Below, piece by piece: positions 33,236-55,877 of a DNA stretch of 64,000 nt. The notes below the pieces were generated by a model. The model saw only the letters and a list, made by a program, of their open reading frames with translations, did not search any database and was not told the DNA's origin. Position 1 is the first letter of the stretch. Each line of letters starts with the position of its first letter. Source of the DNA: Priapulus caudatus (taxonomy: Eukaryota; Priapulida; Priapulimorpha; Priapulimorphida; Priapulidae); NCBI RefSeq assembly GCF_000485595.1, contig NW_014578063.1, positions 25,626 to 89,625 of the forward strand, read 5' to 3'. The translations under genes were made by a program, and so were the position numbers.

Positions 33236-34354
33236 TCAGACCTCTTTGGGTTCCTGTTTCAATTCTCGCACTGTAGGGGCTTGCTTCTTATCCCACCAGT
33301 GCCAGATCCTCCTAAGTATTGGGTCATCCCGTTGCAGCTTGCTCAGCTCCGGTCTGGGTATTTCAGGCAATGTGCCTGTAGCAGCAGGGACCGTATGTCT
33401 GGACCGTGTGCTGATCTCCTGCATCCACTGGGGCGCTACACAGTTGATAACGGCCTCCTTCAGGTCCTCTGGTAGGTTGGTAGCTGGGAGATGCCGATCC
33501 AGACTGGCAGCGACTGGTTCCGCTGCAATTTCTTCAAAGCGTGAGCTAGCTGGCTCCTTGCCATGATTTCCCTTCTGGCTCAGGATGTCTGGTACCACAT
33601 TAGCGCGTCCTGGCTTGTACCTCACGGTGAAGTGAAAAGAAGCCAACTCTGCTGCCCATCGCATTTCAGTGGCGTTCAGCTTGGCCGTTGTTTGCAGGTA
33701 ACACAAAGGGTTGTTATTAGTGCATACTGTAAACCGGGATCCCAGGAGCATGTCCCTAAACTTTTCTGTAATAGCCCACTTTAAGGCTAGCAGTTCAAGC
33801 TTCTTGCTGCTGTAATTGTCCATGTTTCGCTCTGCCTTCCGCAGCCCCCGACTCGCATAGCATATGACAGTACGTTTTTTGTCAACTTCCTGGCATAGCA
33901 CTGCACCCAAAGCCTGGAGGCTTGCATCTGTCTCTACAATGAATGGCTGCGAGAAGTCAGAGTGCCCCAGGATGGGAGCAGAGATTAGCAACCTCTTCAG
34001 TTCTTCAAAGGCCACCTGGCAGTTTCCAGTCCAGTCCACAGTGATGTCCCTTGAGGGATTCCTCCTTTTCTGGTTAGATTTGCTGGGTCCTCCTATCAGC
34101 GCATGCAGTGGTGCAGCCAACTGTGAGAAGCCTTTCATGAACTGGCGGTAGTAACCCGAAAGGCCAAGGAACGCCCGAAGTTGACGTTCTGTCCGCGGGA
34201 CCTCCCACTCCTGCATCACTCTAACCTTTTCTGGGTCAGGGGAAATACCCTCGGCAGACACCATGTGGCCTGAGTACCTGATGTGTTTCTTGGCCACGCT
34301 ACATTTCTCCGGCTTCACCTTGAGATTATGCTTGCCGAGACGTTCTAACACCAT
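33236..34354 (-). pseudogene. Gypsy reverse transcriptase C-terminus and RNase H
   Basis: A 372-codon minus-strand ORF that continues the reverse transcriptase begun at 39235-40514, from which it is separated by a nested transposon. It opens with MVLERLGKHNLKVKPEKCSV and the thumb phrase LRAFLGLSGYYRQF. RNase H follows: FIVETDASLQALGAVLCQE (first Asp), ELLALKWAITEKFR, then TNNNPL where the family has T-D-N-x-P, so a catalytic Asp is replaced by Asn here. The tail leads to the integrase zinc domain. The ORF is open, but the missing acid and neighbouring damage mark it as decayed. Confidence 0.9.
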
Positions 34355-34764
34355 TAGTCCATCAGCCCCGGTATCAAATCAGGGGGAGAATGCTTATAGT
34401 GATTTTTGGGAAGGTATACACCCCTAGAGTTAGAAAACTTGTGATAGCATTGGGGGGTGGCAGCTTTATGTGAGTTATCTCCCCTTTTCCAAAATGGCCG
34501 CCAAAATGCTAATTAAGCTATATATCATGTTCTAGAGCAGCTAGGATAGTGATTTTAGTGTCTATGACCAGGTATTATGAGTCGTAGATTTTATTTCTGT
34601 CTTTACCTAAAACATTGAACACAAATTTAATGAAAATATATCCAAGATGGCCGCCAAAATGCAAGATGACCACCAAAATTGCTGTTTTCAAGCTCGTATA
34701 GCAGTTAGAACAGTAATTTGTGTCTATTATTTCAACTAGTCAAAGATTCTTTATTCACCTAATC
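34355..34764. repeat. TIR, left copy of transposon 1
   Basis: Contains AAAATGGCCGCC (34491) and AAGATGGCCGCC (34644), resembling the YY1-binding word AANATGGCGGC, and the phrase AACTAGTCAAAGATTCTTTA shared with the right copy. Confidence 0.85.
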
Positions 34765-34849
34765 CAATAAAGCCTTCATATAATAATACAATCCAAGACA
34801 CAATGGCGGCTGTAACAAGTGTCCAACTACAGTGAAATGTACATGATGA

Positions 34850-37800
34850 GTCTAATACTCATCATTACTGTCCAGTTCATCTTCATCCACATCGTCGTTC
34901 TCGTCCGTGCTTTCCCCATCATCTGGTAACCGATTATCGCAGTCTGACAGTCTGCACATATCAGTGCACTTAAGTCAATTTGCCAGACAGACAGAATTTG
35001 GCAGTGTACACTTCCTTGGACATATTGGCAGGCCAGTAGGGCCAAGATAGCCTCAGGTGCTGGCTGACCATCCATCCAATCCACTAGCATTGATTGCTCA
35101 GTTCCATCCATTTCAATTTTCCACCCACTGCCAAGGGAACTTGGTACACCTGGATCTTGTTCAAGACATCTTCTCCATATTCCAGCCTGATAGTTTGCCC
35201 TTTGTGCGTGTTTGACTAAGCAGTCCCTGCAGGGTAGAAGCTGATGACTCTCTATCTCACTTTTCTTGACACAGAACAAGTGGTACCAGATATCATTGAC
35301 CTTGAATTCTGCTTTGGGACCATAGAGGAGACATGTGAAACACTCTAGTTTGTTCATCAGTTCTGAGGAGAGGTCCCATTCCTGGCCCAACTCCGCAAAT
35401 GTATTCCTAATTTCCCTATTGATGGTCAATAATTTTAGAGCACTTGCCTTCCCTTTACCTGCGAAAGCACTGGTAGTATCACATCCAGTGTATGAATGCA
35501 TTCCAATAAGAGCTCTGCAGACATCTATGCCGACAGTGGCAGCGACTTTCCCTATGTAAACTAAACTAGTTCTGGTTCTTGTTCCACATTTCTGGAATAA
35601 CGGGGCTCCTATCTGGTCATGGAATGCCAAACACATGATAAAGACATCTGTATCCTCTGAGCATATCACTACAACCGGGTAGCCCTCTCCAGCAGCATGG
35701 ACCGCATGAAAAAGTAGGCGTCCATCTGCTTCTTCCTGCTGGCACTGTATATCTGGCACCTCTTCACTACCCTGCGATGTAATCCTGTAGCATTTTTCAT
35801 CTACAGTTGCATACAGAATCTTCTCATGTAGTTTCTCTCTATACACTGGCTTCCTCCATTCCCTGACAATGAAGATAATCAGACTGGTTTTGTTATTTAC
35901 TCCTGTCAGGAAACTTCTCCATTGCCTCACGATCTGTGTGCTTGTGATACCCTGCAGCTGGTGCCCAGTTTCTTCCCGTCGTGCCGATCTCTCACTGTTC
36001 TTGGTAGAATTCTCTCGATACGTGTCAAACACAACATCTATTCTGGTACTTTTACTTCCTTCACTTAATGCCATAGACAGAATGGTAGAGGCAATGTCTC
36101 CAAACGTAGCTTGATCACCCTTTATTCTTTGAACTAGGTTAATGCCATCGACCACAGAGGTAGAATTTTGTAGGACTTGGTCTGCTACTGTCACATTCTT
36201 CTGCAGAGATGTGGCTAGGGCAGCTTTGTTTGTTTTCCTGAGTAATCCGTCTGGGGTGGTGAGAGACCAGGGTAGTGGTCCCATGGGGTGAGCGAGGATG
36301 TCCTCCATCTTGAGATTGCGCTCTTGTGCCATCACTATGATGCGACCAAACAGAGACCGATCAGCTTTCAAGATGATCTCCTTCCCACTTGTTTTTACTA
36401 CCTTCTTCTTACACATATTAGTGAATGTTTTCAGCTTGTTAGTTTTCATCGGATCGTGAAATGGTTTTGCTGGTGGATCGTTCTCCAGTCTCTCGTTTTT
36501 GAAAGTGGCATAACTCTGCTCTCCAATATCGCATGCCTTCATCAGGTCAGAGGCAATGTCTTTGGGTGCCGATTTTGCAGTAGAAATGCTTATGAGGTCT
36601 TGCTTTTCTGAGAATGGGTTGATCCAGGCTTGAATGAGGCAGACGACTGCCGATACTGTTTCCTCATCTTTTTGGAATCTGGGCTGCTGTAGATCAGCAT
36701 GGTTGAGTTCCGATTGGTTCCCATGTACCATGTTTCTTAAGTGTCTAAGAAATGTGCTGCGGTACTCTGCTGTTATGTAGAACCTTCTGATGGCTCCTGT
36801 TTTTAGGCTGAACCGTGCCGTGCCTCCAGGAGTCTGAGTGTCTTTGTTCACTGTAACCTCAGTTGTCTGATCTATAGGTATCCACCCAAAGGGATTATTG
36901 CTGGACATCTGCACCGAAAAATGACCTTCCTGAAAGGCTCTGTGTACATCAGGATTAGTCTCTGGAAGATTTGTTATCTGATCAAAGTATGCAGACAGGT
37001 ACCTGGCATAGTTGACCTTATCGTAGGCAAAACACCATGGGATCATGGTTCGAATGGCATTGATGTGCAAATCCCAGTTTCCCTCACGAGATGCACGCAG
37101 AAGGCCAAGTATCACATACTCTACTATGTCTATGTATGAAATCCAGTATTCCGATAGCTCCCCATTGTTGTGGCAGAGGTGTTCCAAGAAGTCTCTACAC
37201 AAGATCATCAACTCTAACAATTCTGGACTGTAGAGGAGATTACTGATGTTCTGTTGGTTGAGTTCATCAGCTATGCTGTTCACCTTGTCAACGCATGTTT
37301 TGTTCACAGCGCTCTTCTCCTCATTGCTCTCTACCCATAGTTTGAACTCTGCCCATGCCAGTCTCATCAAAGCTTCATAGATGCACTTGTGGATCCTGAT
37401 AGTACGATTGTACCGTTTACCATCGATGACCCTATTTATGGACCCCTCCGCGACTATCCCAGCTTCTTTGCATATGTCCTTCCAACCACCATCACAGAAT
37501 CGCTTTTCTATGATACTCAGGGCATTCATGATAGTGTGGAATGTTCCCATCCTCAAGAGCACATGGGAAAAACGCTCTTTGTGCTTCCAGGCAATTTCAA
37601 CGGCTTTTGCATAGAGTGCTTGATCCATGACTACCACAAGTGTTTCCAGACACAGTTCCTTTCTGATTAGATCTGACTGTTTAAGAATTTTAAAAACTGT
37701 ACTCAACTCTGTTAGCTGGTGCATTGACTGCTGGGCAGGTATCCAACAACATCTTCTGAGATTGATTCTTGCGTCCTGGTTTTGATATTAAACCCAGTCC

Positions 37801-38820
37801 AACTTGGGATTGTCTGACTCTCTGATGTTGTTTGTCTTGCTAGGATCCATACCAGGTTCTTGTTACAGGCGACTTGCAGCAGACTCTTGTGCTTCCTGGA
37901 TGTGGTTCTCATGGTTCGGTGGCTAAGGCTGTGGACTACACGTGCACTAGCTACATAGACTTCCAGATCTTCGTGTTCGAATGTTGACTGATCTTTGTTT
38001 CAGTTTATCAATGTAGGAAGTTCTGTCGTAGGTGGATGAGGTCCATAGACCTTAGGCTGGACCGCTATTCCGTTGACTCAATTGGATGTACCTTTTCCAG
38101 TAAGTGTCTCCCTCCAGTTGTCTATATTGTCCCATGCAAGATTGTGAAGGCCATGTGCGGCTTTTGATTGGAGACTGGTAGAACAGCTCTCTGGTTTAAG
38201 CCCATTGCTAACTTCTGGAGACAGAGAGCAGTATCATTCTCTTCTAGCTGGTCATAAGACACTTCATGTCCAAACTTGTTCAGTGTCCGAATGACCTCAA
38301 TGTTTCCAGTGAGTGCTTTCACCGCATAAGGAAGCAGGAAATGTTTTGGTGGTTTACACTGCCCACGTGTCACAGCATATATCATGTCCTGGCTAAATGA
38401 CTCAACTAGAATAGCAGTTCTGTGGGATGTATTCGTAGTACTAGAATCTCCAGTGAGGAGCCCGACAAGAAATCGCTCTAGTTGATTTGGTATTGCGATA
38501 TGAGTAGCTACATCAGACGGATGGTATGGCCATGGTGTGGATATCATGTCCTGTTTGGTGGCCGTTCGGATATGTGATGAAGTCTGATCTATGATCTTGT
38601 TGACATCTGTAGACTTGGCCTTCCAAAGCTTGAGAGAGTTTTGAGTAGAGTTTGATTTTCCAAGACAACATCATTTAATGATACACAGTAGGGAACCAAC
38701 AACAACTTTCCATTGTCATCGGGAAATATTTCCATGGAACCTCCAAGCTTGGATTGCAGTCTTCTGTGGATATTCTTCTTTGTTGAATCCTTAAAAAGTT
38801 TAACTCCACCAGATAACTAT
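34850..38820 (-). pseudogene. PIN/FEN1-like transposon protein with CXC-like tail, decayed
   Basis: The largest intact part is a 965-codon ORF (34827-37724). Residue D34 in VVMDQALYAKAVE and the following RMGTFHTIMNAL belong to a conserved N-terminal block known from many uncharacterised invertebrate proteins. Residues about 520-770 carry an XPG/FEN1-type PIN signature: VVDGINL (D526), VVFDTYREN (D567), EEADGRL (E665, D667), SEDTDVFI (E690, D691, D693) and TGCDTTSAF (D749), followed by GKGKASALKLL, which resembles the FEN1 helix-turn-helix GIGxKTALKLL. Upstream coding (37725-38820) is read in shifted frames with several stops (WDNIDNWRETLTGKG; 38122-38547). Near 35030 a frameshift hides a cysteine-rich tail (KCTDMCRLSDC) ending in acidic residues at about 34855. 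Function in transposition is inferred from its place between TIRs, not shown. Confidence 0.75.
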
Positions 38821-39234
38821 ATTTAGGTGAATAAAGAATCTTTGACTAGTTGAAATAATAGACACAAATTACTGTCCTAACTGCTATACGAGCTTACAGC
38901 AATTTTGGTGGCCATCTTGCATTTTGGCGGCCATCTTGGATTTATTTTTATCAAATGTGTGTTCAATGTTTTAGGTAAAGACAATAATGAAATCTACGAC
39001 TCATAATACCTGGTCATAGACACCAAAATCACTGTCCTAGCTGCTCTAGAACATGATATATAGCTAAATAAGCATTTTGGCGGCCATTTCGGAAAAAAGG
39101 AGATAACTCACATAAAGCTGCCACCCCCACAATGCTATCACATATTTTCTAACTCTAGGGGTCCAGACCTTCCCAAAAATCACTATTAGCATTCTCCCCC
39201 CAATTTGATACCGACCAACCTGGCTGATGGACTA
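38820..39234. repeat. TIR, right copy of transposon 1
   Basis: Complement of 34355-34764, with GGCGGCCATCTT at about 38935 and GGCGGCCATTT at about 39079. Confidence 0.85.
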
Positions 39235-40514
39235 TATATCCAGACGTTCGATCATCTGGTCGAACGATGAACCGAATACCAAAAGGTCGTCCAGATAGTT
39301 GATCAGTGTTTGGAAATTCTGATCTCCAAATATGCGGTCCATCAGCCACATAAAAGTCCCCGGAGCATTGCACAAACCCATCGGCATGCGACAGATTTCT
39401 TAAAGCCCACCTGTGCCAGGTCTGAAGGCGGTCTTATACCGGTCCTCCTCAGCCCCTGGTAGCTGGTAGAAGCCGTGGGCCAGGTCTAGGCTGCAGAAGT
39501 ACTTCCCACCTCTCAAAGCCCTGATGGTTTCCTCACCAACACCACTGGAGATGCGTAAGGACTGTTGGATTCACGGATAATGTCCCTCTCCAATGCCGAC
39601 TTGATAAAGTCTTGCACTTCTTTCCATTGGTTTGGCGGAACACTCCTGTGAGCCACCCTCACTGGCTTATCATCTGAGGTGTGGATCCTGTGGGTGACTA
39701 GGTCACAGTAACCTATGTCATCTTCGTCTCGGCTGAACACATGCTGGTGCTTCCTGATTAGGGCGTTCAATACCTCGTGCTGATCCTTTGTGAGTCCCTC
39801 GCCTATGTCCATCCGGTTGATCAGGTCATGGGCTACGTCATTGGCCCGCCTTACACCAACCTCTTCTTTCCGCACCTCATGGAGACTCACGGGATGGATC
39901 CTTAGCTGGGGGTTCAGCGTGACCTGTTCCACAATGCCCACAGGCGTCCGTGGATTCAGATAGAGGTCGCTGCCACTCCAGTTGGTCACCTGTTTCGGCA
40001 CGCGTCCTGAACAGCCTAGCTGGGAGCAAGTCCTGCCCACAGCAAGGCCCATAGGAAGGGCTGGTAGGATTTCCTCCTGGTGCTCTACCATTACGAGGTG
40101 TTCTTCTATAGCCCCCATGCATGTGCCCTCCAGTATCTTCACTGACCGGGCTGGTATCAGCTGTGGCCCTCTACCAGCTACCCTTACCCTGGAGGTGCTT
40201 GGTTCAGTGTGGTCCGCTTCTGCCTTAGTTTGGATTGCTCCATATAAGGCAAGGACATGAGCCCAGTGGCTCCCATCTACTTGGCTGGAGTCTGTCAAAT
40301 CCTTAAGATAGGTCTCGCCCCACTTCTCCTTGAGAGCTGTCCGCATTCTTCGCAGGATGTTACTCCCAATTACCCCCGGAACAAACCGCTTCCGATTCTC
40401 CATGGGGGTCCCTTTTGGGTCGCACACTACCAGGAATCCCATCCTGTGGAAGGTATGCCGGCAGATCTCAAGGTCGCGTTCTATATAGCCTCGGTAAGGG
40501 ACTTTCAAGCTCAC
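39235..40514 (-). pseudogene. Gypsy protease-RT linker and reverse transcriptase N-terminal half, with internal deletion
   Basis: The 333-codon ORF at 39513-40514 covers the linker after protease (MSLKVPYRGYIERDLEI) and the start of the reverse transcriptase (SPYASPVVLVRKPSG). At about 39520 the frame stops and resumes as ETIRALRGGKYFCSLDLAHG, so a stretch of the fingers region is deleted and the frame is shifted. The palm follows, including LCNAPGTFMWLMDRIFG and the catalytic YLDDLLVFG box at about 39280-39310. Coding ends at 39235 at the nested transposon and resumes at 34354. Bases 39155-39234 belong to the transposon, not to this gene. Confidence 0.9.
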
Positions 40515-41225
40515 GGGCCCGTTGTCAGAAACAAATTAGTCTTAACATTAACCTTAACATTAACTTTTTTTCTTACAGCGTTGACAGAAACTTCGTAAAT
40601 TAAAAATTCTCGTAACTTTTCTCTTAACTTAAGAGATCCTAGACCCTACCTTAACTTTAATATTAAGATGAAAATAACACATTTAGACTAAGAATTACAA
40701 TTACAGTGATGTTATATTTTATATTAATGAGTAATATCATGTGTTTTTCTTGGAAAAAACGTCAAAAACATTAATTATCTACCGATCGTGAAGCAAAACA
40801 AAAGTGTCAAAACATTTACAAATGCCGTATGGCATTTGTTCTCTTGTTTTAAATACTTTTGCACTAATATGACAACACGACTCTCGCGTCTCGTGAGAAT
40901 TGCTACAGTATGAGAATTTGTCTGGTTGTGCAGAATAAATTCAAGACCGTGTCGTTTTTCATCAAATATTATTTATATGTGGTTAGCCATCATAATATGC
41001 ATAAATTACTGTAATGTACAATAAATGTGTATGAATTTGAATTTTGTGATCGATTCCCATCCAATCAGCAGCCTTGTGATGGAGTTCCTGTTATCGTAAG
41101 TTTTCACTTAAGTCAGTTTAGTTAGGCCTACTTTAGGTTTCTGTCAACGCTATTAACTTTTCTCTTAACATTAACATTAGTCTTAAAATTAATCGTAACT
41201 TTACGAAGTTTCTGACAACGGGCCC
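40515..41225. mobile_element. MITE E nested in Gypsy
   Basis: A 711-bp element with termini GGGCCCGTTGTCAGAAAC and its complement. Second, inner inverted blocks (GTTGACAGAAAC with CTTTTCTCTTAAC) repeat the terminal word. It splits the Gypsy frame between the protease (ends SISGAQG) and the linker (SLKVPYRGY). Interior AT-rich, non-coding. Confidence 0.85.
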
Positions 41226-41470
41226 CTGGGCACCAGAAATGGAGATAAAATTTGACACATTCTTGGGATGCTCGCCATTGCTCAGTTGCTCACGGAAGAA
41301 TGATTCTGTTACCGTGGAAACCGGAGCTCCCGTGTCCAGCAAACATTTCATCTCCGCCCCTGCTATCTTAACTAGGGCCTCGGGGCACTCTCCTACTGCC
41401 TTTTTTAAAAGTCAGCCTACCCTGTCCGTTTCCACGCACAGCTCACTGCAACAGGCGACTTTAGTTTTCT
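41226..41470 (-). pseudogene. Gypsy aspartic protease
   Basis: Minus-strand reading frame with the retropepsin active-site LLDTGAPVSTVTESFF (catalytic Asp in DTG) at about 41300-41345, preceded by EALVKIAGAEMK and followed by ISISGAQG. The following MITE interrupts the frame. In the family this enzyme cleaves the gag-pol polyprotein; one domain of the dimer is encoded per chain. Confidence 0.85.
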
Positions 41471-41519
41471 GACAAATTTGGCCTGGACACCTGGGGGTGG
41501 CCCCACCGGCCCATTCCCC

Positions 41520-42560
41520 TTATCCGGGCAGTTCCTTTGAATATGGCCCGGGGACTGGCAACGTCAACAAAGCATGGGGCTCTTGTCAGCCCCATACTGG
41601 CGCCGTGGGCCCCTGTTGACAGGTCGACCCCCACTCGCCTGTTGTCGCAGCATATCCATCATGACAGACATGTGCTGCTGCTGCTGCTGCTTTAATACTT
41701 CAGCTAACTGGTCGCCTTGTTGCTTGATAGCAGCCACCACTGGGTCGACAGCCTCAGAGGTGACCTCCTGGTCCATAGCGACACGGTGACGGCCCTTGTC
41801 ATGGCTGATGCCCAGTCACTGTATCGCCCGGTCCCGCAACTCGAAATAGGTCAGGGCTGGGGACTCGAGGTTGAGGCACCTTAATTCCCGTTGCAAGTCT
41901 TCCTCATGGACTGCCTCTGCCAGCCTCCCCTTCAGAGTAATGTATCTGGAGGCCTCCCATGATCCATCCATAGCGGTGATCTGATTGCTCAATTGGACCA
42001 GCTCCAGTGAGCAGCCAAGCAGGTCTTGGCTCCCTTTCTGCTGGTACGAAAAGAATCACTGCTGGATCCTCGGCAGAGATTGGTGGTCCGCATCTCTGAA
42101 GGTCGTCAACAGGACTTCGAAGATCTTAGCATCTCAGCATCTTCGCTTACTCCTCGACGACCACTCACCTCCATGCGGGCCCTGCCCCCCAGTTGCTGGA
42201 GGACCACTGCCGCCCTTTCCTCCTGGATGCCTTTACGGGTGGCTAATTGAGCCCGCATGTCCCCAACCCATTCTTCAACATCCGGATCGCCCGACTTCTC
42301 TGGACGGTACCCAGTCCCGTTCCACATGTCGAGAGGGAGCAGTATAACCCGGCCCATGCTGGCACACAGCCTTAAGTGTGGCCTCCACCAATTTGGCCTT
42401 CGCTAACTCCTCCTCCAACATCCTCACCCGATCCTCCATTCCGCCACCCGCGGGACTCCGTGTGAGAATGGACCACGTAGTTTAGGGACCCAAGGGCAAT
42501 GGGAGGCTTGTACTCGAGAAGCTTCCTCAGTCTACAGTCTACACCATAAATCGCGCAATT
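41520..42560 (-). pseudogene. Gypsy gag with CCHC zinc knuckle
   Basis: Pieces of gag are read in two frames: 42106-42357 (WNGTGYRPEKSGDPDVEEWV, a capsid-like start) and 41564-41776 (helical, with a Gln run QQQQQ). The CCHC knuckle C-x2-C-x4-H-x4-C (RCQSPGHIQRNC) lies at 41526-41569, with a TGA in place of the residue after the first Cys. At least one frameshift occurs between 41780 and 42110. Gag packages the element RNA in the family; this copy cannot do so. Confidence 0.8.
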
Positions 42561-42834
42561 CATTCATACAATACAAATATGTACAAAGTGCATTATTGTT
42601 TTTGACTAAATGCTACGCTGGCTATCTGACTAGCTGGTCGCCATGCCATCAGGCAGAATGCTGGCAACGGCTTGGTCGGCATGCGAGTCCATGTGTCCCT
42701 GCAGAGCCTTCAGCATCACGTATGCCACGCTACAGATCGTGCAGATGTTCGCCTTATAGCTGTCTTCTTGTTTCTCTCGTCTCCCTCAGGGGTTTGTTCA
42801 TCTCATCGGATCAATGGATGCCGTACTTGATTAA

Positions 42835-42851
42835 TCCTGTCGACTGCGCCA
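42835..42851 (-). promoter_or_regulatory. Gypsy primer-binding site
   Basis: On the minus strand TGGCGCAGTCGACAGGA follows the LTR end (CTCACA) after two bases. TGG-initial sites complementary to a tRNA 3' end prime minus-strand DNA synthesis in Gypsy elements. Confidence 0.8.
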
Positions 42852-42853
42852 TT

Positions 42854-43202
42854 TGTGAGGTCGGGAAAAATACTCCAACAATCAAGTGCGGAGTAGACGA
42901 TTTATTTGTGAACAAACAAAAAACCCCTAGGGAGCCAAGTACATGATCGGGCTAGATCGTGCCACCGTAGGACTAACCACGCCAACTTGTTGTTGCCAGT
43001 TTGTTGCCCGCGAGTCACACGATAACCTCGTAGATGTTGACCGATAGAAATTACTAATCAGCAGAATGCTTTCTTCTGCTTTCTATCTGATCCAGCATGG
43101 TGGCCTAGTGCTGCCATCTGTTCTCTGTAGTGCTGCCGGCTATCTTTTCTCTCCTTTCGCCACTCGAGGCCAGCACCAAACAATCACAACAACCCTGGGA
43201 CA
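42854..43202 (-). repeat. Gypsy 5' LTR
   Basis: About 349 bp, starting TGTCCCAGGGTTGTTGTG and ending CCCGACCTCACA on the minus strand, a TG...CA form. An AATAAA signal lies at about 42900. The upstream boundary is inferred because no second LTR exists for comparison. Confidence 0.65.
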
Positions 43203-43448
43203 ATTCGGCATGTCACACAACAACAACAAAATATTATAATAAATATAAAAAAATAAAATAAAATAATTAATTAATTAAATATTGTAAGATCGACTTGCTA
43301 CCGATGCTTTACCGCTGTCTGCAGCGCACACACTCGTGTTTTACGTACGCACAACATTTTCACGCAGTTAATGTTATGGAGCCAGTGGGTTGTTTAGAAC
43401 CAGTGGGTTCGTTGTCATGCCACCGTGACGTCACACTTCGGTACTCTA
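43203..43448. other. TEAD intron, unassigned
   Basis: AT-rich stretch then mixed sequence; no feature recognised. Confidence 0.45.
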
Positions 43449-43905
43449 TTTGGCACGAGCCAATTTGGTCCCATCGAAAACGTCGGACCAGGCTCGAGCC
43501 AAATTTTAGTACCAAAATTGCAGCAAAGCAAAAAGCAAAATAGCAGCTAAATCGGTTGAGCGGTAGATGACGCGAGTGTCGAACGTGTACTTCGACGAAA
43601 TAAAGTCCAAAACAGTATAAAAATTCGAAAAATTTGATCAGGATGCACGTTTTCAAGATTGATAATTGAACCCGGAACGGAAGTAAACACTCTGAATCGT
43701 ACACAACGCCATCTCGCGACATACTGCTAAAGTATCTGTGAGATATTTATGCAATAAACTTTATTTGAATTTGAATTTGAATATGACAAACAGTATATTC
43801 ACTTGCGTACGTGTGAACGCTCCGACTCAAACCGGCCCGAGCCAAATTTAGCCTAAGCCAAATTTAGCCAATTTGGCTCGAGCCAAACCATGACCGTGTG
43901 AACGC
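43449..43905 (-). mobile_element. MITE family A, copy 2 (one end truncated)
   Basis: Inverted relative to copy 1 (2274-2763) and highly similar over most of its length. The end at 43905 carries the complement of GCGTTCACACGG; the other end stops at about 43449 within the TTTGGCACGAGCC block. The short ORF of copy 1 is also open here, longer by in-frame additions. Confidence 0.8.
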
Positions 43906-45112
43906 GGTATATATGAGTATGAATGATGAAACTTAAATCACGTATAAAAAACTGAACCTTAAGCTAAACCAAGCCCATTTGCATTAGGCGATAGTATCCC
44001 TTTAAACGATGCGACCAGTCAAAGTCGAAAAAAGTCTCTCAAAAATTCTGATCACTATGTAGGCCTCGTATTTACAAATCAATTTCGTTAAAGTCAGTTT
44101 AGTATACAAACGTGTATAGTGTGGGTGAAAATACAAAATATAATACATTAGCAAAATGGCAGTTGAGGTCAATCTTTGTCACCATTCTCAGAGCTATGCT
44201 TAGATTGCGCTGTTATTAATATTACATCAACCTTAAATTGACTACGTCCCGAATTTTCTATGGTGTATATTTGTAACATTTTTGTTGCCATTTTTTACAT
44301 TAAAAGTAAGTACTAACGGGGCTAATTGTATCGTCAAATTTTTACCTGGTAAGATTGTTTCTCAACTAGTTAAAAATCCAAAAAACTTGGACGATTTGAT
44401 ATTATGATCCTGACAATAATTGCTTGCTATGGGCTATGTATGAGTCACGAGTGTATGTTTACATCGAACAATATAGTAAACTAGGAAGTATAATGCAGCA
44501 ATTTAACCAGAAAAAAGTGAACAGAATTACATACATTTTGTGAAAAAGTGGAAATATTTTGTTTACTTTTACTATTTACGGTGATGTAATCACTTTAACT
44601 TCTCATCATTTGATCTGATAGCCGCTGAACTGTACCAACCACTGATTCAACTTCGTGATAGCTTTGTTCCTATATAGAGGATGTTGTACACTGGTTTAGC
44701 AAGGAGTCTTGAGTCCCACTGTCAAGGCTAACATATAATAGCAGTTTGCATTCTGTTTCAGAATGAGGTCGTCAAAGTTGGATCATCCTACGAGGTTTGT
44801 ATGCTATTTCGACAACATCGGTTTCTTGGAGCAGGGTTTCATGCGATCCAAACCTTGTCAGATCAATGTGTGATGCGTGTTACGTGTATAGATCGTGCAA
44901 CCCCCATAGCATAAAATAGCACTCAAACCACATATACAACATGGAGAAAGAAACAGCTCAACTCTACTGATATTACCCATAGATGATCGATATCAGTTCA
45001 GTTCAGTCCCCGGGGGGGGGGGGGACTCGCCTAGGAACTAGGTAGGGGGGGTGCCTCGGGAACCTTGAAAACCTGACCCTGTCGCAAACCGCTTTGCACC
45101 CTAAAATACACC
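43906..45112. other. TEAD intron, mostly unassigned
   Basis: A TTAA-MITE R1-like end (GTATCCCTTTAA) occurs at about 43991 and a G12 run at about 45010. Otherwise AT-rich with no gene. Confidence 0.5.
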
Positions 45113-45224
45113 ATGTCCCAATATACTGCACTAAAATGTGCTCAAAAAATTGCTAAAGTGCTCAGAAACTGGTATGAGAATGTCTATCATGGACCAATCA
45201 AGGACCCGCCTATGCAACCTTACC

Positions 45225-45420
45225 GATATTGGCGTGCCGCTAAGTTGTTCATATTGGACCTATGTTGGCTTGCTTATATTGGCTTGCCTATATTGGTCCG
45301 ATATTGGCAGATATTGGACCACTGCCTGCTTATATTGGTCCAATATTGGTGTGGTGATATTGGCCCAATATTGTTTTGCCAAGATTGGGCCAATATCAGC
45401 TTGCTTGCTGGTAATCTAGA
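45225..45420 (+). repeat. Degenerate ATATTGG minisatellite
   Basis: About twelve irregular repeats of CATATTGG, TATATTGGTCC and CAATATTGG. The 170-codon ORF across it (45113-45625) shows no family and is read as chance. Confidence 0.75.
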
Positions 45421-46168
45421 TAACCCTGTGCCAATAATGATGTTCGGAAAATATACCCTGTCCAGCGACACGTCCCCAGTACCTTTAACAATTGTAGTGC
45501 CCCCCACCCCCCGGGAGTTCAGTAAACATGAACCCTCGAAATCTATGTTTCTGAAGTCAGCGTATCCATATGCCGTGTTACTTACACAGAGAGCAGAGGC
45601 CACACATGGCATCAAGTATTCCTAATATCCCCTACAGCGCCAAGTGTCACATAGTAATGAGTTCGGCCCTGCTATCGCGGCAAGTTTAGCTTTTCTCATG
45701 CCAGAAGAGATAAAAAGTGTGTGAAACCCCGTCGTATTCAAAGAACATTTTTGAAAAATACATACGATTTTCCGGTAAACTGCTGGTGTCATATGACTAA
45801 GGGAGAATCAAAGATTAAAACAAGGTAAAGTTTGAATAGATTTATTCACATATTAATAGAATAAATTCAAGTTGAACACTGCCCAATCACTCTGTAAAAC
45901 ATTCTTCTATTATAAACTCTTGATATATATATATATGTATAGCTTTGGCTGAAACACACCGAGACGTTCTGAATGTGCTCTAGACTGACCCGTAATCAAC
46001 AACTGCACTCACAAGCGCACCATACACAGTCCTACAGTATGTGCGGAGTAACAACAGACACCAGTCACTCAGCACTCTTGATTGTTTTGCGGTAGCAACT
46101 TTGGCGGCAATACAAGCGCGCCCCATATATTGACAGGTTTCTACAACAGCAGAGGATATTAACGTGAT
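45421..46168. other. TEAD intron, unassigned
   Basis: No gene or repeat recognised. Confidence 0.4.
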
Positions 46169-46996
46169 ACCAAGAGTAGATAATAACACAAGAGTAACAC
46201 ACCCGATTCCCGCATTTTTAACTGATTTTTCTCATCAAAATTTGCCACCAATAAAGAAGCAAGTGTATACGTTCCTCAGCTTATTATGACCACTAATCAC
46301 TCACCTTCGTGGTACTGATATTCGTTACATATATTTGCTAGCGTATTGCTGTAAATCGTAATCTTGCACGAGCTGAATTCGCACAATTTACCGCTATTGT
46401 GTGAGGTGTTAAGACAAATTTTGAAGCTATAGTGGCGCCAATATTTAGCAACGGACGGTTTCCAAATCATTCGTGCCCCGATAGGGGTTTAATGTACTTG
46501 ATTACCTGCGTGTGCGTAATGTGATACTTACTGCAAACTACTACAGAGAATATTGTTATTATGGTGTTATTACTTATGTAAGATAGTATGTCAATTTCTT
46601 GTGTTGCGATCACAATAACTGAGCGCGTCTCGCGGCTCCTCACGAGATCAAAATTCGAAATTTAGATTGTCTCTCAACCCTATCGGGGCACAAATGATTT
46701 GGAAACAGTCCGTTGCTAAATATTGGCGCCACTATAGCTTCAAAATTTGTCTTAACACCTCACACAATAGCAGTAAATTGTGCGAATTCAGCTCGTGCAA
46801 GATTACGATTTACAGCAATACGCTAGCAAATATATGTAAACGAATATCAGTACCACGAAGGTGAGTGATTAGTGGTCATAATAAGCTGAGGAACGTATAC
46901 ACTTGCTTCTTTATTGGTGGCAAATTTTGATGAGAAAAATCGGTTAAAAATGCGGGAATCGTGTGTCTCACTCTTGTGTTATTATCTACTCTTGGT
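46169..46996. mobile_element. Element with 320-bp inverted repeats
   Basis: Left arm 46169-46488 and right arm 46677-46996 are inverted copies of equal length that differ at only a few positions by eye. Outer ends read ACCAAGAGTAGATAATAACA. The spacer is 188 bp. The flanks GTGAT on both sides partly overlap the ends and may be a target duplication. No coding frame is evident; a foldback-type MITE is the simplest reading. Confidence 0.9.
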
Positions 46997-47388
46997 GATA
47001 CTGAGAGAGAGTTCATGAAATAAAAGAAAGAATTCAAGTGAAAGGGCATTACATGTGCTTTAGCTTGCCATATGGTTTAAGCTAGACCAGTTAAGCTCAC
47101 CTAGTTTAGCAAACTTTAGCTTGCCTTATTTCCTGTTTAACATCTGCATCATTTGTATCGCTATACGGACGCTGCATATCGATTATCGTATCAGGGGCTG
47201 CTGTACGGTAAATTGTTACACCCCTAGTAAACACTACCACTGTAGTAGTGTAGTAGACAGACTGATCTGTGTTATCAGGACATAGCGCGATGATGAAGTG
47301 TTCTTGCTCCCACGTGGGGTTGGGCGTTGTACGATGTTCGTGAGTCATGGCGGTGGAAGTGGCACTGAATGGACAGTTGTTGCAGCAG
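46997..47388. other. TEAD intron, last part before exon 47389
   Basis: No repeat recognised. It ends with a tract leading to the acceptor TTGCAGCAG. Confidence 0.5.
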
Positions 47389-47553
47389 GATCAGGCAGCA
47401 AAAGACAAGGTTCTGCAGTCACTGGCAGGCATGTCATCGGCTCAGATCGTGTCCGCCACTCTACTCAATCACAAAGGCTTCCCAGCAATGATGGGTGGTG
47501 TGCCACCATTCGGCAACACTATGGGGCCCACCTATCCTGCAGCCACGCCAACG
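47389..47553 (+). CDS. TEAD: TEAD exon: linker after the TEA domain
   Basis: The 165-bp exon encodes 55 residues between acceptor GTTGCAGCAG and donor GTAAGC, in phase 0 at both ends. It begins DQAAKDKVLQSLAGMSSAQI followed by VSATLLNHKGFPAMM, the conserved segment directly after the TEA domain in animal TEADs. A proline-rich, divergent stretch ends in YPAATPT. The region links the DNA-binding domain to the YAP-binding domain and is partly disordered in family members. An alternative acceptor three bases upstream (TTGCAG) would add one Gln. An in-frame ATG lies upstream at 47347, but the match to the family begins only at the acceptor, so it is not taken as a start. Confidence 0.95.
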
Positions 47554-48803
47554 GTAAGCCCACTGACCCTGTCTCCACCCTCACAGTAGTCATCCCCTTC
47601 CTCGCCCCCACTCTCACAGAAATTGCAACCTACCCTGTGTCCAGCCTCACTAAGCCCCACCTACACTGTCTCTACTTTTACAGCAGTTGTCCCCTATTCT
47701 TCTGCCCATGCCATGGTGATCTTTCCCTACCCAGCTACAGTCAATAGTGTATGCCCCACTATCTATCACTGCTAGGAAAATGTCCTATAACCTCAGGGTA
47801 AGCCCCTCTACCCTTCGAGTTTCCCAGGACAAGCCTCATATACTCTCCTATCATCTCAGTGCAAGCCTCCTCCCCCTTCCATCACTTCTATGAAGCCCTC
47901 CCATCTTCTCAGGGCAAGCTTCTATTATCCCTCACCATCTCAAGACAACTCCCCCTCAACCCTTCCACTATGTCATTACAAGTCCCCTCCCCTCCCATCA
48001 CCTCACCCCCATTACCTCAGAGCAAGCCTCCTTCCCCTTCCATCATCTCAGGGCAAACCTTTAACCTCATAATTTCAGGAAAATACTCCTACCCTTTCAC
48101 AATCTCAAGGCATATGCCCTGTATCCCCCACCATCTCAGGATAAGTCCACTTCTACCATTACACCATCTCAGGACAAGCCGTCTCTATGCTCCCATCACT
48201 TCAGAGTAAGCCTCCTTTTCTTTCCCTCCCATAATCTCAGAGGAATCCTTGGCTACCCTTCCACCTCTAGGCAAGCGCCACGTACCCTCCTACCACCTCA
48301 GGGCAAATCTCCTGTACACTCCAATCATGGCAAGAAAGCCACTTCAACGCTCACACCTTTATATTATTTGCACCATGTCTATTGAACTCGTCAGTAGATC
48401 AACCTTTCTGCATACATGTACTAGATACATTCTGGCACATTCATGTATAGTAGCTTTCAAACAGAAGCACCGTAAATGTTGCAGCAATTTTTTATATTGG
48501 AGCATATATAGTTGTGAAGAAAAATACAAAAAACGATTATTGTTATTTATTAACGCTGCTATTTAATGTTACCACCCTGGCTCCATCTGAATTGGATCCA
48601 CCTTACAGCTGGGGACAGATCTACAAAACTGGAGACTAGGTTGTAATCATTCCCTCAATTAGAGTGATCGTCCTCTATAAGAGTTTGTACTGCTACCATG
48701 ATCAAGGTGAAGAAGAAGAATTTTCAGTGATTTTTATCACCCTTTGTCACCCACTAACATAATGTGACACCGAAATTCACCCGTCTCTGTATCTCTTTGA
48801 CAG
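47554..48803. repeat. TEAD intron with degenerate TC-rich minisatellite
   Basis: From about 47800 to 48330 imperfect repeats of about 30 bp contain CCATCATCTCAGGGCAAGCC flanked by TCC-rich sequence. Long S/P-rich ORFs over it are artefacts. Bases 48350-48803 show nothing. Confidence 0.75.
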
Positions 48804-48844
48804 TTCTGGCAGCCAGGGTTATCACAGCCAGCGACAACTCAAGA
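48804..48844 (+). CDS. TEAD: TEAD small exon (FWxPG segment)
   Basis: A 41-bp exon between acceptor TTTGACAG and donor GTAAGT. It encodes FWQPGLSQPATTQ plus two bases of the next codon, which is completed by the first base of exon 50800 to give Asp. This corresponds to the FWPG...SSQ|D segment of vertebrate TEADs, where an intron interrupts the same codon. The exon is too short for an ORF search; it is identified by its position, splice sites and the FWxPG motif. It belongs to the linker before the YAP-binding domain. No other role is known to me. Confidence 0.93.
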
Positions 48845-50367
48845 GTAAGTAGTATTCCCTCACACCATTTCAGATTATCCACAATGAGCATTCCGAATGA
48901 TTACAAAAAAGATTCCTAATTATGAGTGATGATTTTTTAGCTCACCTTGACATCGTCAAGATGGGCTATTGCAATGGGTCGTTGTCAGTCGTACGTCAGT
49001 CCGTCCGTCAACATTTGGATACGGTCAAAGATAACTTGAGAACCGTTTGACCGGCATGTTTCAAATTGCATACAGTTGTTACTCCTATGGGAGAGGTCTG
49101 AACGTCCTATTTTGGCTCAGTTCAGGTTCAACAAATTTTGCTAATTTTTGGTATGTGAATGAATAACGACTGTCCCCAAAACATATCACAGGGATTTTGA
49201 TATTTTTGAGAAATTATGCAAGTTAGGTAGATATTGGCAATTTCACTATGCATTTCAGTGTCTGCCTACGGTCAACGATAACTCACGAAGCGTTTGACCC
49301 ACATGTTTCAAATTGCATACAGTTGTTACTCCTATGGTAGAGATTTGAACGTCCTATTTTAGAGCACGCCAGTCGACCTACTTTTGAGCCACGCCCACTT
49401 TTTGGCAAAAATGGAAATGGCCATAAGTCAGTTCAGGTTCAACGGATTTTGCTCATTTTTGGTATGTGAATGAATAAGGACTGGCCCCAAAATATATCAC
49501 AGGGGTTTTGATATTTTTTTTAAATTATGCAAATTAAGTAGATTTTGGCAATGTCACTATGCATTTCAGTGTCTGCCTACGGTCATCGATAACTGAAGAA
49601 CCGTTTGACCCACATGTTTCAAATTGCATACAGTTGTTACTTGTATGGGAGAGATGACAACGTCCTATTTTGGAGCACAGCAGTCGACCTATTTTTGAGT
49701 CATTCTCAACTGCGTGTTTACATGCGTTACTAAAAAGTAGTTATTTTATGCTAAGAACAATGAAGGAATTAATTAGAAGTCTAATTAATACCTTTAGTAT
49801 AGTACCACTAAATACTGTTAAAACTGGTGGCTAAACTGCCCCCCACTCAGTGCACTTGTTCCCACTCTCTCATTTGTGCCCTTTTTGTGGTGAGCTACAG
49901 TGTCATTGACACTTTCATTTCACTAGAGATGAAGTCTTAAAAACATGGTACAACTAAGATTCTATTCCCTTGTTGTTGCTTAGTGAGTAAATTTACATCT
50001 TTATTTTCAATATTTTTCATATTTTGACGATTTCATTTCATCTGTTAAGGATTGCCGCTCGTAATAATGTATACTGAGTACACCATATACCATGCTGTAC
50101 AGCGTGACAGTGGCCAGCTATGAGAAGGGAAGCTATTTGGTCACGTGAGCAGATATACGCGCCCCAACAGTGCACACCTAAGTGGGGGGGGGGGGACATC
50201 AATGAGTCTAAGGCGTAGTATAAAATATAGATAAGTGTATGCTATATATGTTACGACACACATAATTGCAACAAGTCGACCGAAACTGCCCAACGGCCAC
50301 GAACACCAGAATCAGAACATTTAGTCCCGGGTATCTTTCGTCACCTCCCTTTTTAGGGGAGTCCTCT

Positions 50368-50409
<42 letters not shown>

Positions 50410-50441
50410 GTCTCTGTGTCTCTCTCTCGCTCTCTCTCTCG

Positions 50442-50485
<44 letters not shown>

Positions 50486-50799
50486 GCTCCCCTTCGCTCT
50501 CGCCCAATTGTAGGTGATCTACCTTAATTAACTAGCGACCTTTCGTATTAGGCCTGTTGATGGTCTATGTTGCATTATGGAACTGTGGTTTTTCAACACT
50601 ACATAAGTTTAGATGTGATTAAGCTTGAGCATGTCTGGACATGTCTTATGGGAATAAAGAGAAAATCATTGTAAAGATATTCAGTAGTTTTCTTGCATTA
50701 GTATCTTGAACATCATCACTCACTTATTTACAACATCAAGACGCTGCTAACTTGGTTATAACATCGACATGTTGCTCACTTGTTTATTATAATTGACAG
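48845..50799. other. TEAD intron with repeats
   Basis: Holds a TAGCTCACC element (48938-49897), a dispersed repeat at about 50060-50150 (inverted partner at 9355-9440), a G10 run at 50184 and a TC microsatellite at 50370-50480. Confidence 0.75.
48938..49897 (+). mobile_element. Hairpin-ended element with TAGCTCACC termini
   Basis: Termini TAGCTCACC and its complement (49889-49897). Just inside the left end CTTGACATCGTCAAG folds as a hairpin, followed by GTCAGTCGTACGTCAGTCCG. A segment containing TTTCAAATTGCATACAGTTG occurs three times (about 49060, 49305 and 49615), so the interior is a diverged tandem array. No coding. Confidence 0.75.
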
Positions 50800-50971
50800 T
50801 GTGAAGCCATACATCGCTCAAGCATATGGAATCCCGGGTAAACCAGAGATGGCGCCACCAATTAGTTCCTCCACCTCAACGTTGTCATGGGAAGGACGCT
50901 ACATTGGCACGTCCAAGCTGCGATTAGCTGAATTCTCAGCGTACATGGACCAGCAACGAGAAACAGACTCA
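50800..50971 (+). CDS. TEAD: TEAD exon: start of the YAP/Vgll-binding domain
   Basis: The 172-bp exon lies between acceptor ATTGACAG and donor GTAAGC. After one base completing Asp it encodes 57 residues: VKPYIAQAYGIPGKPEMAPP, a serine-rich linker, then WEGRYIGTSKLRLAEFSAYM and DQQRETDS. WxGRxIGTxKLRLxEFSAF is the first beta-strand pair of the immunoglobulin-like YAP-binding domain in all animal TEADs. Compared with vertebrate proteins the linker before the tryptophan is short and diverged. The donor falls after DS, the same place as in vertebrates. The intron upstream is 1,955 bp and the one downstream is 6.5 kb and contains transposon 2. Confidence 0.97.
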
Positions 50972-51585
50972 GTAAGCTAACAGGGTGACGGCACGTGTAT
51001 GCACGTTTTTTGTTATTACACACGTGAGGTTGCAAGTGTAGCCAAGTGATTACATGGTTGTGACAGTGATGAAGAGACCACCCTGTTTTACTTTAAAATG
51101 CTTATAAGTGAGATGGCAGCATCTCTTTTGTTTGCAAACCCCCTGCTGATTATATGTGACCTACACCTGCCAATTTTGTGTCTCTGTTGTGAAGAGATTG
51201 CTATGTGAGGGGTGTGTGTTACTTTTACCACTTTTATTGTGTCGGCCATGGCTTTCGTGTCACAAAATGCACATTGCGTGTTTGTTGGAAACATTAAAAC
51301 TAGACATGTGACTATATCGAGGACGACAGGAGATACCTAAAGGATGTAAACTTCCTAAACTAAATATCAAAAACAGTTTCTTCAGCCAATCAATCATAAA
51401 ATCAATCCATCAAATAAAGCATGCTTCTAACCTTCACAATTCAGCCATCGATCTTGATGCCACAAGATCACTGCAGCAAGCAATCATAAAACTCTCTCTC
51501 ACTCTCTCTCTGTCTCCCTTTCATGTCCTCCCTCCTCCCTCCCTCCGTCTCCCCTTCTCTTACCCTCTCTCTCTCTCTCTCGCTG

Positions 51586-51620
<35 letters not shown>

Positions 51621-52133
51621 GTATGTATATATATATATACATGAATGGATGGATGGATGGATGGATGGATGGATGGATGGATGGGTTGGTAAATGGGTGG
51701 GTGGATGGATGGATGGATGGATGGATGGATGGATGGATGGATGGATATATGATATATGATATAGATATATATTACTGAGCGTTCATATTATGTATATCCA
51801 TTGTTACAGAAAAAATTCAGTTTGGCACTATATCTGAAACCATTTAATATACCCTTAACATCATATATCCCAATTTTGTTGCTTATACCACAAAACCCAC
51901 AATCCTTCTACACATCTGCCCCACTAGTATGGTTGGAGCTAAATTCTTTCACACCGTGTGCAGGTCTTGATGTCAGCGTTAGGGTGCATGTAAAAGTATT
52001 TGGCTAACAATTGCTTGCATACTAGAACTGCTGTTTTGTGTCAAATGCTCGCATGCGCCTCTTAAATTCTTGCATGCTACTTAAAAATCTTGATGTGTTC
52101 ATGACAAGATGTGTAACCAAAAGAGAAGTGTAT
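50972..52133. repeat. TEAD intron with TC, AT and GGAT microsatellites
   Basis: TC runs at 51490-51600, AT runs at about 51602-51640, and a GGAT array at 51644-51746. Nothing else recognised. Confidence 0.85.
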
Positions 52134-52430
52134 TAGTGGGGCAGATAACAGCCATTTTTGATAGGAATCGTGCAAATGATGATACAAGCATCAAATTTGG
52201 CACACTTGTTCTCCAAGTGATACTAATCAAATCTGCCCGATTGGCCAATTGAAAATCTAAGATGGCGGCTATTTTTCAAGATGGTCGCCAAATTAGCCTC
52301 CCGAAGTTGACGTTTTGCTTAGAAGTATTTGTAGTTGTCCGATTTGCATGATCTATGTGTGGATTCCTATGTTTTCAAGCCTGCTGAAGTGGATTTTCCT
52401 GTTTATAAAACACACTGACACATATTTTTC
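52134..52430. repeat. TIR, left copy of transposon 2
   Basis: Contains AAGATGGCGGC at 52258-52268, a perfect match to the YY1-type word, then AAGATGGTCGCC. Shares AATGATGATACAAGCATCAA with the right copy. Confidence 0.9.
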
Positions 52431-52528
52431 AAGATGGCCACTAGATTGTCTGTTTTTCATTACGTAAGCTTTGCCCCAGCTAGTAAATGTTCAAAGTTAT
52501 ACATACCATGCCACTGGTCCTCCAGCTG

Positions 52529-55510
52529 CTACTGTTCACATATGCAGCTGCAGAGTGATGTGCAGGGGAGCTTTGACTGAAAGCACTTGCATCTTCCTTT
52601 ACAACCTTTCTTACAGGAACACTTCGTCAGTTCCCGACAGCTCGCTCCAATAGGTGGTAGTGTTGTCCAACATATCTGCCATGTCTCTCCTTTCTGTGTC
52701 CACACCCATTCAGCGGGACTGCTCGTGTCTGGATTGGAGATGGTTGCCTGGCCCCAGATGATCCCAGCCTGATAGGCCGCACGCTTTGCATGTTCTCTGA
52801 GGGCTGCCTGTGTTGGTGGAATTGAGTTGTACGGCCTCTGCTTGCGGGCAAAGAGATCTAGTCTTGCTTCGTCCACACCAGTGGCTGCACTTGATCTGTC
52901 GTACACGAGGACAATGAATCTCTCCAGCATCTGCAGGTCAAGATCACGAATTAATGTTGGATGCTGGCTGAGATTAGTGAATGTTTCAGAAACATCATCA
53001 AATACGTTCCAAGTCTGCCATGCAGATTTCTTCGCTTTACAACGGAAGGCAGACACGAGGTCACATCCAGTAAACGGATGAAAGTATGGGATCCCTCTAG
53101 CTTTCTCAATCTCTATTGCAGAAACTACCTCATGGACTGGAATCCATCGCATCTTGGCTCCTTGGCCAAACGCAATCCACATGTTCTTAAGGCCTAGTTC
53201 TTGTAACGATGGCAGTACAGATATTGCTATGACTAGCACGTCCGTGTCATTAGCCTTAATGATAATAGACTTGCTCCCATCAGTCGTTGCATCCCTGGCG
53301 TGTACAAATATTCGACTGTCAGCTTCTTCATGACAACATGGGGACACAGCATCCAGAGACTTCCTTGTGTTGCTAATGGCATCTTCTTTTGTGACGATGA
53401 CTGTGCTTGTCGTCTTTGCTTCACACATCTTTTTCGCAAGGAAGTGAAACAGCTCAGTCTAGTTTCTGGCGTCACGAAGGAAGCTTTGCCAGTTACTTGG
53501 TGTCTTACTCGTTCCTGTCACTCTTCTTCTGATTTCTTGCCCCTTTTCGACCTCGTCTCGGATTTCAGACTTGACTTCTTGTACACATCAAAGACTACGT
53601 CCACCCGCTCGTACCTGGCACCATAGGATTCCACCTTTGGGATGATGTCTTATTTAGCATAGTTATGAAATGTTTTTGAAGTGCGTGGAGGTAATAAATT
53701 GATAAGTGCTGAGCCATCAATGATGATTGCATCTCCCTTTTGTTCTCTGTCTGGGATGTTCACTTGCGCTTCAAGAATTTCAACCAGCTGTGACTTCTGA
53801 CACGTATGAACCTTTCCGCTGTCACTGAGAGATGCAGGCTGTGACTGATTCTCGTGCTTGAAGAATTCTTGCAAGTCACACTGCCTGTTCTGGCACGAGA
53901 TGAAGAGTCGCGGGAATAACTGATGGTTGTCTTTCAGGACTTTCTCCTTAGAAATTCCTTCAGCCTGCTCTTGTTTGAAGAAAGAAACAAGGTTTTTCTT
54001 GATTGGATAATAGAAAGGACTTTCACCTTCATCCTCTAGCCCCTCCATGAATGATTGGAACTGCTCTTTGCCCTGCCGGTGTAGCTACCATTTCAGCTAG
54101 TTGGGTATGCAATGTTCTTCGTGTCTAGCACCAGCAGGTCGGCTGATTCTTCTTGGAATGGGTTGCCCATCTCCTGCATCACTGCAGAGAGTAATTTTAC
54201 CTTTTTAACGAGAGATTTCTGGGCACTTAGTGTCTGCTCATGGTGTCTGCTGATGTAGGTGGCATCTTTCATACCAGACATGGCCTCGTATCCAGCTACT
54301 AAACGACTAACTTCGGGTCCAGCGACCATCCACCTACGAAGTGCTGACGGGTCTTCTGTCAACCCAATTGCTCCTCCGTCACCTTTGATCACTGCATTAT
54401 TGTGCTCGAGTGCTTGGTCAATCGCCAGGGCAGAGAATTCTCTTCTTGACTTGTGGATGGCGAAGTTCCCTTTGTGAAACTCCCTGGCCACATCTGGATG
54501 TTGTTGCTCAAGTGACATCATATCTCGGAGGTGAATTGTGATCCATCGCGCATAGTTGACATTGTTATTCGCAAAGAAGTAAGGCACCAGTTCTGAAAGT
54601 GCTTCACGGTACAAGTTGAAGACGCCTTCTCTGAATGAGCGGATCAGGGTGAATATGGTGAGCTCCATGTCCAGCACCAGACTCCAGAACTGGAACTGCA
54701 GACTCTCTTTCCTCCGTTGTTAACACCAATCCTCAAAGGTTATATCTGATATGCTAGACTCTTCAGAGCGGTAATTATGGTATGCCTTCTTCATCAGTTT
54801 GTACAAGCTGCATGCAGTGATCTGGTGTGCTTGTCTTGTCTGGTGTGACACTGGATGCAGACAGGTAAGACTGTGCTGTACCAGATGAGGCCACCCCTGC
54901 TTCCACAATGGCACTGGTCCAGCCACTGTCCCGTAGTAATGTTCCTATTAATCGCAGTGCAGCCATTTCTATATGAAGTCCACCGAACATGATCACGAAC
55001 TTGTCCTCTCCATATTCGGGCCACTTTCATTGTATTTGTTTTGCCAGAGCATACAACGGTTGGTCAGCAGCAATAACAGGTGTCTGCCCTGGGTTCAGAA
55101 AAGCCACTGTATCACAGACCTTCGCCATGGCATGCTTGATCGTTGCAATAGAGTGAGCCTGGTCTCGCCACAGAGGCATCATTGCTGAAATGCTCACTTC
55201 AAATGGATGGCTCTTTTTCTGCGTTGCATGGTGGGCTGACCATGTGATGCTGACTGCATCAGCCACATCCTCAGTGAAAAAGACTTCCTCTAACCAAGAA
55301 TATTTTTCTTTCAAGTGTGACCAGATCGACTCGGGTACTCATCTAGTTTAGCCCGCGAGCCAACGCGGTTTACCAGGGTCTGGCTGATGCCGTGCACTAG
55401 CATCTTCTTGGAGCCATAGATGAGAGTTGGGCCAGTGGTGAGGACCAGTGCCAGTAGTCCATCCAATGGATGTGGCTGACTGCTAAAACAAATTAAGGTA
55501 CTACCTCTAA
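52529..55510 (-). pseudogene. PIN/FEN1-like transposon protein with CXC tail, decayed and N-terminally truncated
   Basis: Minus-strand pieces in order: 55027-55314 (ADQPLYALAKQIQ, corresponding to MDQALYAKA of element 1), 54775-54996 (MFGGLHIEMAALRLIGTLLR), 54093-54677 (ARWITIHLRDMM, then ALAIDQALEHNNAVIKGDGG), 53650-54048 (AIIIDGSALINLLPPRTSK, first PIN Asp) and 52529-53428 (EEADSRIF, then NDTDVLVIAIS, then FTGCDLVSAF). Between them VDVVFDVYKKSSLKSE is read at about 53570-53600. The C-terminus has a CXC-type cysteine cluster, CSCKKGCKGRCKC then CTSLCSCIC. Stops at about 53655 and 53462 and frameshifts separate the pieces, and sequence upstream of 55314 is mostly deleted. The order of blocks is the same as in transposon 1, supporting one protein architecture. 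A nuclease role is inferred from motifs only. Confidence 0.8.
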
Positions 55511-55591
55511 CACTACACCCCTACACCCCTACACCCCTACACCCCATAGCCATGCAAACGTATGAAAATCATAAACAAATGTGCAAAGGGA

Positions 55592-55877
55592 GAAAAATAT
55601 GTGTCAGTGTGCTTTATAAACAGGAAAATCTACTTCAGCACGCTTGAAAACATAGGAATTCACACCTAGATCATGCAAATCGGACAACTACAAATACTTC
55701 TACGCAAAATGTCAACTTCGGGAAGCTAATTTGGCGACCATCTTGAAAAATGACCGCCATCTTGGATTTTCAATTGGCCAATCGGGCAGATTTGATTAGT
55801 ATCACTTGGAGAATAAGTGTGCCAAGTTTGATGCTTGTATCATCATTTGCACGATTTTTCTGTTATCTCCTAGACTA
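55592..55877. repeat. TIR, right copy of transposon 2
   Basis: Complement of 52134-52430, with ACCGCCATCTTGG at about 55753. Confidence 0.9.

Follow-up and report, generated by a model that had tools for sequence, protein, structure and literature searches.

Two transposon-like elements, each carrying a broken gene for a protein with a PIN/FEN1-like nuclease, lie in a 64,000-nucleotide stretch of the Priapulus caudatus genome (RefSeq assembly GCF_000485595.1, contig NW_014578063.1, positions 25,626 to 89,625 of the forward strand; hereafter the window). They raise the question of what kind of transposon makes such a protein, and whether the nuclease replaces a transposase or assists one. Here, our comparison of the two elements (E1 and E2) with further genomic copies and related proteins indicates, at a probability that we put at roughly 87%, that both are decayed copies of the AcademX type of the Academ superfamily, whose one protein combines a probable DDE transposase core with a predicted FEN-type nuclease.

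Boundaries, target duplications and genomic copies

E1 spans positions 34355–39234 of the window (4880 bp), as delimited by its terminal inverted repeats (TIRs), its tips and the homology limits of its copies. Its left TIR (34355–34762, plus strand) pairs with the right one (38823–39234, minus strand) at 91.1% identity across 416 alignment columns, with tips TAGTCCATCAGCC. E2, a member of a second lineage of the same protein family, is shorter and apparently internally deleted (52134–55877, 3744 bp; delimited by TIRs and tblastn); inverted-repeat comparison places its TIRs at 52134–52430 (plus strand) and 55592–55877 (minus strand), with TAGT tips and a 265-nt core that is 95% complementary. 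Among the 28 inverted pairs of at least 60 nt in the window, the cores of E2 and E1 are the longest kinds, in that order, and the long TAGT-tipped termini reported in a preliminary description of this DNA are thereby borne out. The flanking triplets are also as described there, with CAT (34352–34354) and TAT (39235–39237) beside E1 and TAT on both sides of E2 (52131–52133 and 55878–55880). On the sequence, we read the E1 flanks as the two copies of a 3-bp target duplication in which one of the three bases changed later.

E1 splits Ty3/gypsy-like pol fragments on the minus strand (open reading frames [ORFs] 33236–34354 and 39513–40514, together spanning 33236–40514). When these pol flanks were joined after removal of one 3-bp flank, a gapless junction was obtained against Ty3 reverse transcriptase (E 3.3e-7), whereas retaining both 3-bp flanks left a one-residue insertion at the junction (E 2.1e-5). 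This empty-site test compared the removal of 0 and 3 bp over short flanks, and removal of 6 bp likewise keeps the frame open.

As had been proposed, each element contains a single broken gene; both genes lie on the minus strand. In E1, the remnant (34906–38816) corresponds to residues 247–1547 of P0001 in three frames, at 67–81% tblastn identity per piece. The 965-codon ORF (34827–37724) covers just the C-terminal part of the gene, ~60% of it when judged against P0001 (1558 aa), and carries the candidate second catalytic D (residue 34), the D/E helix (285/289) and the FEN1/EXO1-type nuclease domain (35136–36230; ORF residues 499–863, hand-converted coordinates). The candidate first catalytic D lies in a separate DNID-block piece (37733–38143), which has two stops and a frame other than that of the ORF. 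The remnant of E2 (52529–55335) corresponds to P0121 residues 511–1409 at 80–90% identity per piece, plus the CXC end, in ORF pieces of 299, 132, 194 and 95 aa; its nuclease domain lies at approximately 52715–53799, with limits hand-interpolated from the coordinates of P0121 and P0132. By tblastn, E2 shows no match to the N-terminal ~510 residues of P0121, among them the first candidate catalytic D. The motif blocks previously listed for both genes are indeed present, with the correction that the C-terminal CXC (tesmin/TSO1-like) cysteine cluster of E1 (35022–34906, minus strand) lies outside the 965-residue frame and is read in a shifted frame that one stop interrupts.

Further copies were sought in the 385-Mb genome (2952 contigs). 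P0001 gave 46 matched stretches (best 30 scored of 1082 candidates), and P0232 also gave 46 (best 31 scored of 1194 candidates), the two lists overlapping in part. We inspected 26 regions, namely E2 and 25 contig regions from the P0001 search (including E1), with C1164 and the additional P0232 contigs set aside. Copy ends were placed by TIR self-comparison or by the tip pattern (up to 2–3 substitutions), independently of the flanks, and both ends could be placed in 9 of the 26. In the other 17, where one or both ends could not be placed, flanks were often short, masked or ending at the contig end, and copies lacking TIRs may be among them. Exact 3-bp flanks border six of the nine two-ended copies (E2, TAT/TAT; C765, TGG/TGG; C2217, GTG/GTG; C1460, TAT/TAT; C514, ATA/ATA; C620, ACA/ACA), for which the chance expectation is about 1.5e-9, assuming independent sites and base composition only. 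Two others match at two of three bases (E1, CAT/TAT; C1312, ACA/ACT), and C2188 (CAT/ATA) has no duplication. Variant tips occur at one end each in C1312 (GAGT), C514 and C2188 (TAGG) and C620 (TAGC). Four copies (C184, C1293, C856 and C565) are close to E1, with 93.9–96.0% identity in the longest stretch; when E1 was compared with them together with 1 kb of flank, homology ended no more than 2 bases from the right tip in three, the exception being C856. A complete element was found at C620:47221–53139, with a TIR core of 157 bp at 91%, an intact ORF of 1,525 aa and the ACA/ACA duplication; P0232, which represents a cluster of 222 sequences, is nearly identical to its product. The nine bounded copies, six of them with exact duplications, and the position of E1 inside a retrotransposon uphold the earlier proposal that this protein family is the product of a TIR transposon making 3-bp duplications.

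The family is widely distributed among animals, as had also been suggested: named matches among those listed come from lancelets, sea anemones, a coral, a sea spider, the gastropod Nucella lapillus, a crab and fishes, while viral contigs searched with A1 and P0121 contained no relatives. The 965-codon ORF of E1 has 275 protein matches at E <= 1e-3, and many of the 120 listed are 1,530–1,590 aa long. For the E2 read-through, scoring was confined to the 7995 candidates with the most words in common; it has 574 matches, and the 120 listed include full-length relatives of roughly 1,480–1,540 aa. The closest relatives among the matches listed are P0001 for E1 (88% identity over 93% of the ORF) and P0121 for E2 (87% over 96% of the read-through). 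The two lineages share about 23–29% identity, and their profiles align over 1432 columns in hhalign (E 3e-135).

Domain architecture of the encoded protein

Predicted structural models of the C-terminal third match the PIN-like fold of FEN1, EXO1, XPG and GEN1, in line with the nuclease type first proposed; no model lacking a PIN fold was encountered. In FEN1 and XPG, the active site is formed by acidic residues in the order D, D, E/E, D/D, D, and the conserved acidic residues in our alignment of 58 proteins follow this order. Unlike the known FEN-type enzymes, the domain is here fused to a transposase-like core and has a sequence similarity below profile detection. The PDB sequence searches with P0001 and with a 74-row profile returned one meaningless match each, and the nuclease assignment consequently rests on predicted structure. 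Pfam scans of 58 relatives (27 of the E1 and 31 of the E2 lineage, families listed at E <= 1) listed no XPG family; weak matches to the PIN model PF20698 appeared in two of the 27 E1-lineage members (best E 0.024), and TCR (CXC) matched weakly in 17 of the 27 (best E 0.041). The XRN1/XRN2 5'-exoribonucleases, which are RNA nucleases, ranked behind EXO1 and FEN1 for the P0132 model. We regard the FEN1/XPG-type fold as well supported by these models.

Upstream of the nuclease, the residues D474, N475, D477, D641, Q642, D892, E896 and N900 (P0001 numbering) are invariant in all 58 proteins, which are drawn from both lineages. The P0132 model places D65 within strand 60–67 and D236 immediately after strand 232–235; next come a helix, strand 260–263, a second helix, a lengthy helical region and helix 453–465, which bears D454 and E458. 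Such an order would be expected if this were an RNase H-fold DDE transposase whose E is preceded by a helical insertion. No confident fold match was obtained for this part, and the structure-search rows of both models were occupied by the nuclease and hence carry no evidence on its fold. In Foldseek, RAG1 provided the only DDE-recombinase rows among those shown, which serve as a lead only (E 1.1–2.5, probability <=0.08); because these rows are weak, we infer the DDE fold rather than take it as established. From the layout and the D/D/E invariance, the upstream region is probably an RNase H-like DDE transposase core.

The middle of the protein, which is part of this transposase-like region, overlaps a Pfam domain of unknown function, DUF6589 (PF20231), at E values up to 1 in 13 of the 31 E2-lineage and 5 of the 27 E1-lineage members (best 6e-8); residues 669–828 of P0121 score 26.3 bits, below the cut-off of 27. 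This overlap suggests that at least part of DUF6589 may belong to the transposase core; a partial literature search found no paper naming this domain.

Probable placement in Academ and the competing explanations

Academ and AcademX are reportedly owed to Kapitonov and Jurka (2010) and Kojima (2020), and the AcademX nuclease is of the XPG type. The preliminary description knew of no named superfamily with the present combination of features. This view is not supported: the element type is already named and not new, since passages of Kojima's IS481EU paper (PMC10045372; a paper, not a repeat database) divide Academ into AcademX, with a nuclease and target-site duplications (TSDs) of 3 or 4 bp, and AcademH, with a helicase and TSDs of 9 or 10 bp. 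E1, E2 and their relatives, compared with AcademX by description and not by curated sequences, agree with it in TIRs, a nuclease rather than a helicase, a size near the bivalve Academ consensus of ~5.5 kb and TSDs of 3 or 4 bp, for which the nine two-ended copies and the reverse transcriptase junction speak. A transposase of the DDE/D class, to which Academ is assigned, is predicted for them from the D/D/E invariant in all 58 proteins and its RNase H-like order in the model. They differ from AcademH, of the same superfamily, in their 3-bp duplications and in the absence of any helicase family at E <= 1 from the 58 relatives scanned. A survey of bivalves with DDE/D profiles, as far as excerpts of it go, gives 100 curated Academ consensus sequences averaging 5565 bp and describes Academ among molluscs as almost confined to bivalves (PMC10294476); our matches include one in the gastropod N. 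lapillus. No description of the fold or function of the AcademX nuclease was found in a partial literature search.

Two points weaken details of our reading and lowered our confidence in it slightly. C765 has two candidate right ends, of which the outer, used here, gives TGG/TGG and the inner TGG/CCA; leaving this copy out, five of eight duplications are exact (chance about 6e-8 under the same assumptions). In addition, XRN rows are tied with FEN-type rows in one structure comparison.

The agreement with AcademX concerns described features, not a direct comparison with Repbase Academ sequences or TAGT-type tips, which leaves some room for a separate, unnamed superfamily that gained an XPG-type nuclease independently. 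We consider this improbable, as AcademX is matched in its nuclease, in the 3-bp TSDs, in having TIRs and in the size of the elements, and we know of no second eukaryotic superfamily that joins these features.

A role of the PIN nuclease itself as the transposase, with a merely structural upstream region, could appeal to the clear fold match that the nuclease alone shows and to its 32 invariant columns of 365 in all 58 proteins, the highest count of the segments compared. This explanation is weakened because the density of invariant columns is higher in the E896 segment (7/45) and equal in the D641 segment (7/80). FEN-type nucleases are, to our knowledge, not known for strand transfer. The invariance of D474, D641, D892, E896 and N900 and their RNase H-like order in the model speak further against it, as does the counting of Academ among the DDD/E superfamilies in a passage of PMC9587614, and we rejected it as very unlikely. 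As to whether the nuclease replaces or assists a transposase, which had been left as alternatives, the evidence leans to assistance, because the predicted RNase H-like region with its invariant D/D/E shares a polypeptide with the nuclease, although no match confirms the predicted fold of this region.

A domesticated or repair-related host gene family with coincidental TIRs, for which only the 17 regions with one or both ends unplaced could speak, is scarcely credible and was rejected, given the nine bounded copies, the six exact duplications, the insertion into a retrotransposon and the homology limits of three of the four close copies. Chance inverted repeats were also considered and rejected.

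Proposed mechanism, other repeats and implications

Our data show where the elements end, their 3-bp duplications, the order of the domains, a nuclease fold in the predicted models and the conservation of the catalytic positions. The mechanism that we find most likely for these AcademX-like elements goes beyond this. The DDE core would bind the TAGT-tipped TIRs, cleave, and join the element to target DNA whose two strands are cut 3 bp apart, which would yield the 3-bp duplications. At the junction with donor or target, the FEN/EXO1-type domain would process a strand that is branched or 5'-ended, by second-strand cleavage, flap trimming or hairpin opening; we infer all of these nuclease steps. 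More tentatively, and on balance doubtfully, a RAG-like DDE core might make branched or hairpin intermediates that the element's own flap or junction nuclease resolves, which would free excision or joining from the need for host nucleases and set the 3-bp duplication, as against 9–10 bp in the helicase branch.

The window contains other repeats. A foldback of 828 bp at 46169–46996 has arms of 319 bp at 97.5% identity and resembles a miniature inverted-repeat transposable element or a foldback element. Inverted arms of 191 bp (98%), composed of short GATTGCTTA-type units, flank ~2 kb at 17740–20163, and arms of 129 bp (95%) spaced 1.3 kb apart at 7569–9155 mark a possible small TIR element. A dispersed repeat forms an inverted pair at 2355–2666 and 43448–43796, in three pieces that are 91–97% complementary.

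The intact ORF of C620, together with the fold models and conserved sites, makes the roles of both putative activities directly testable. The same element offers a test of the suggestion, in passages of PMC10045372, that the difference in TSD length between AcademX and AcademH seems related to the encoded nuclease or helicase. Our findings further suggest that some animal proteins now labelled 'uncharacterized' or 'hypothetical' are transposon products.
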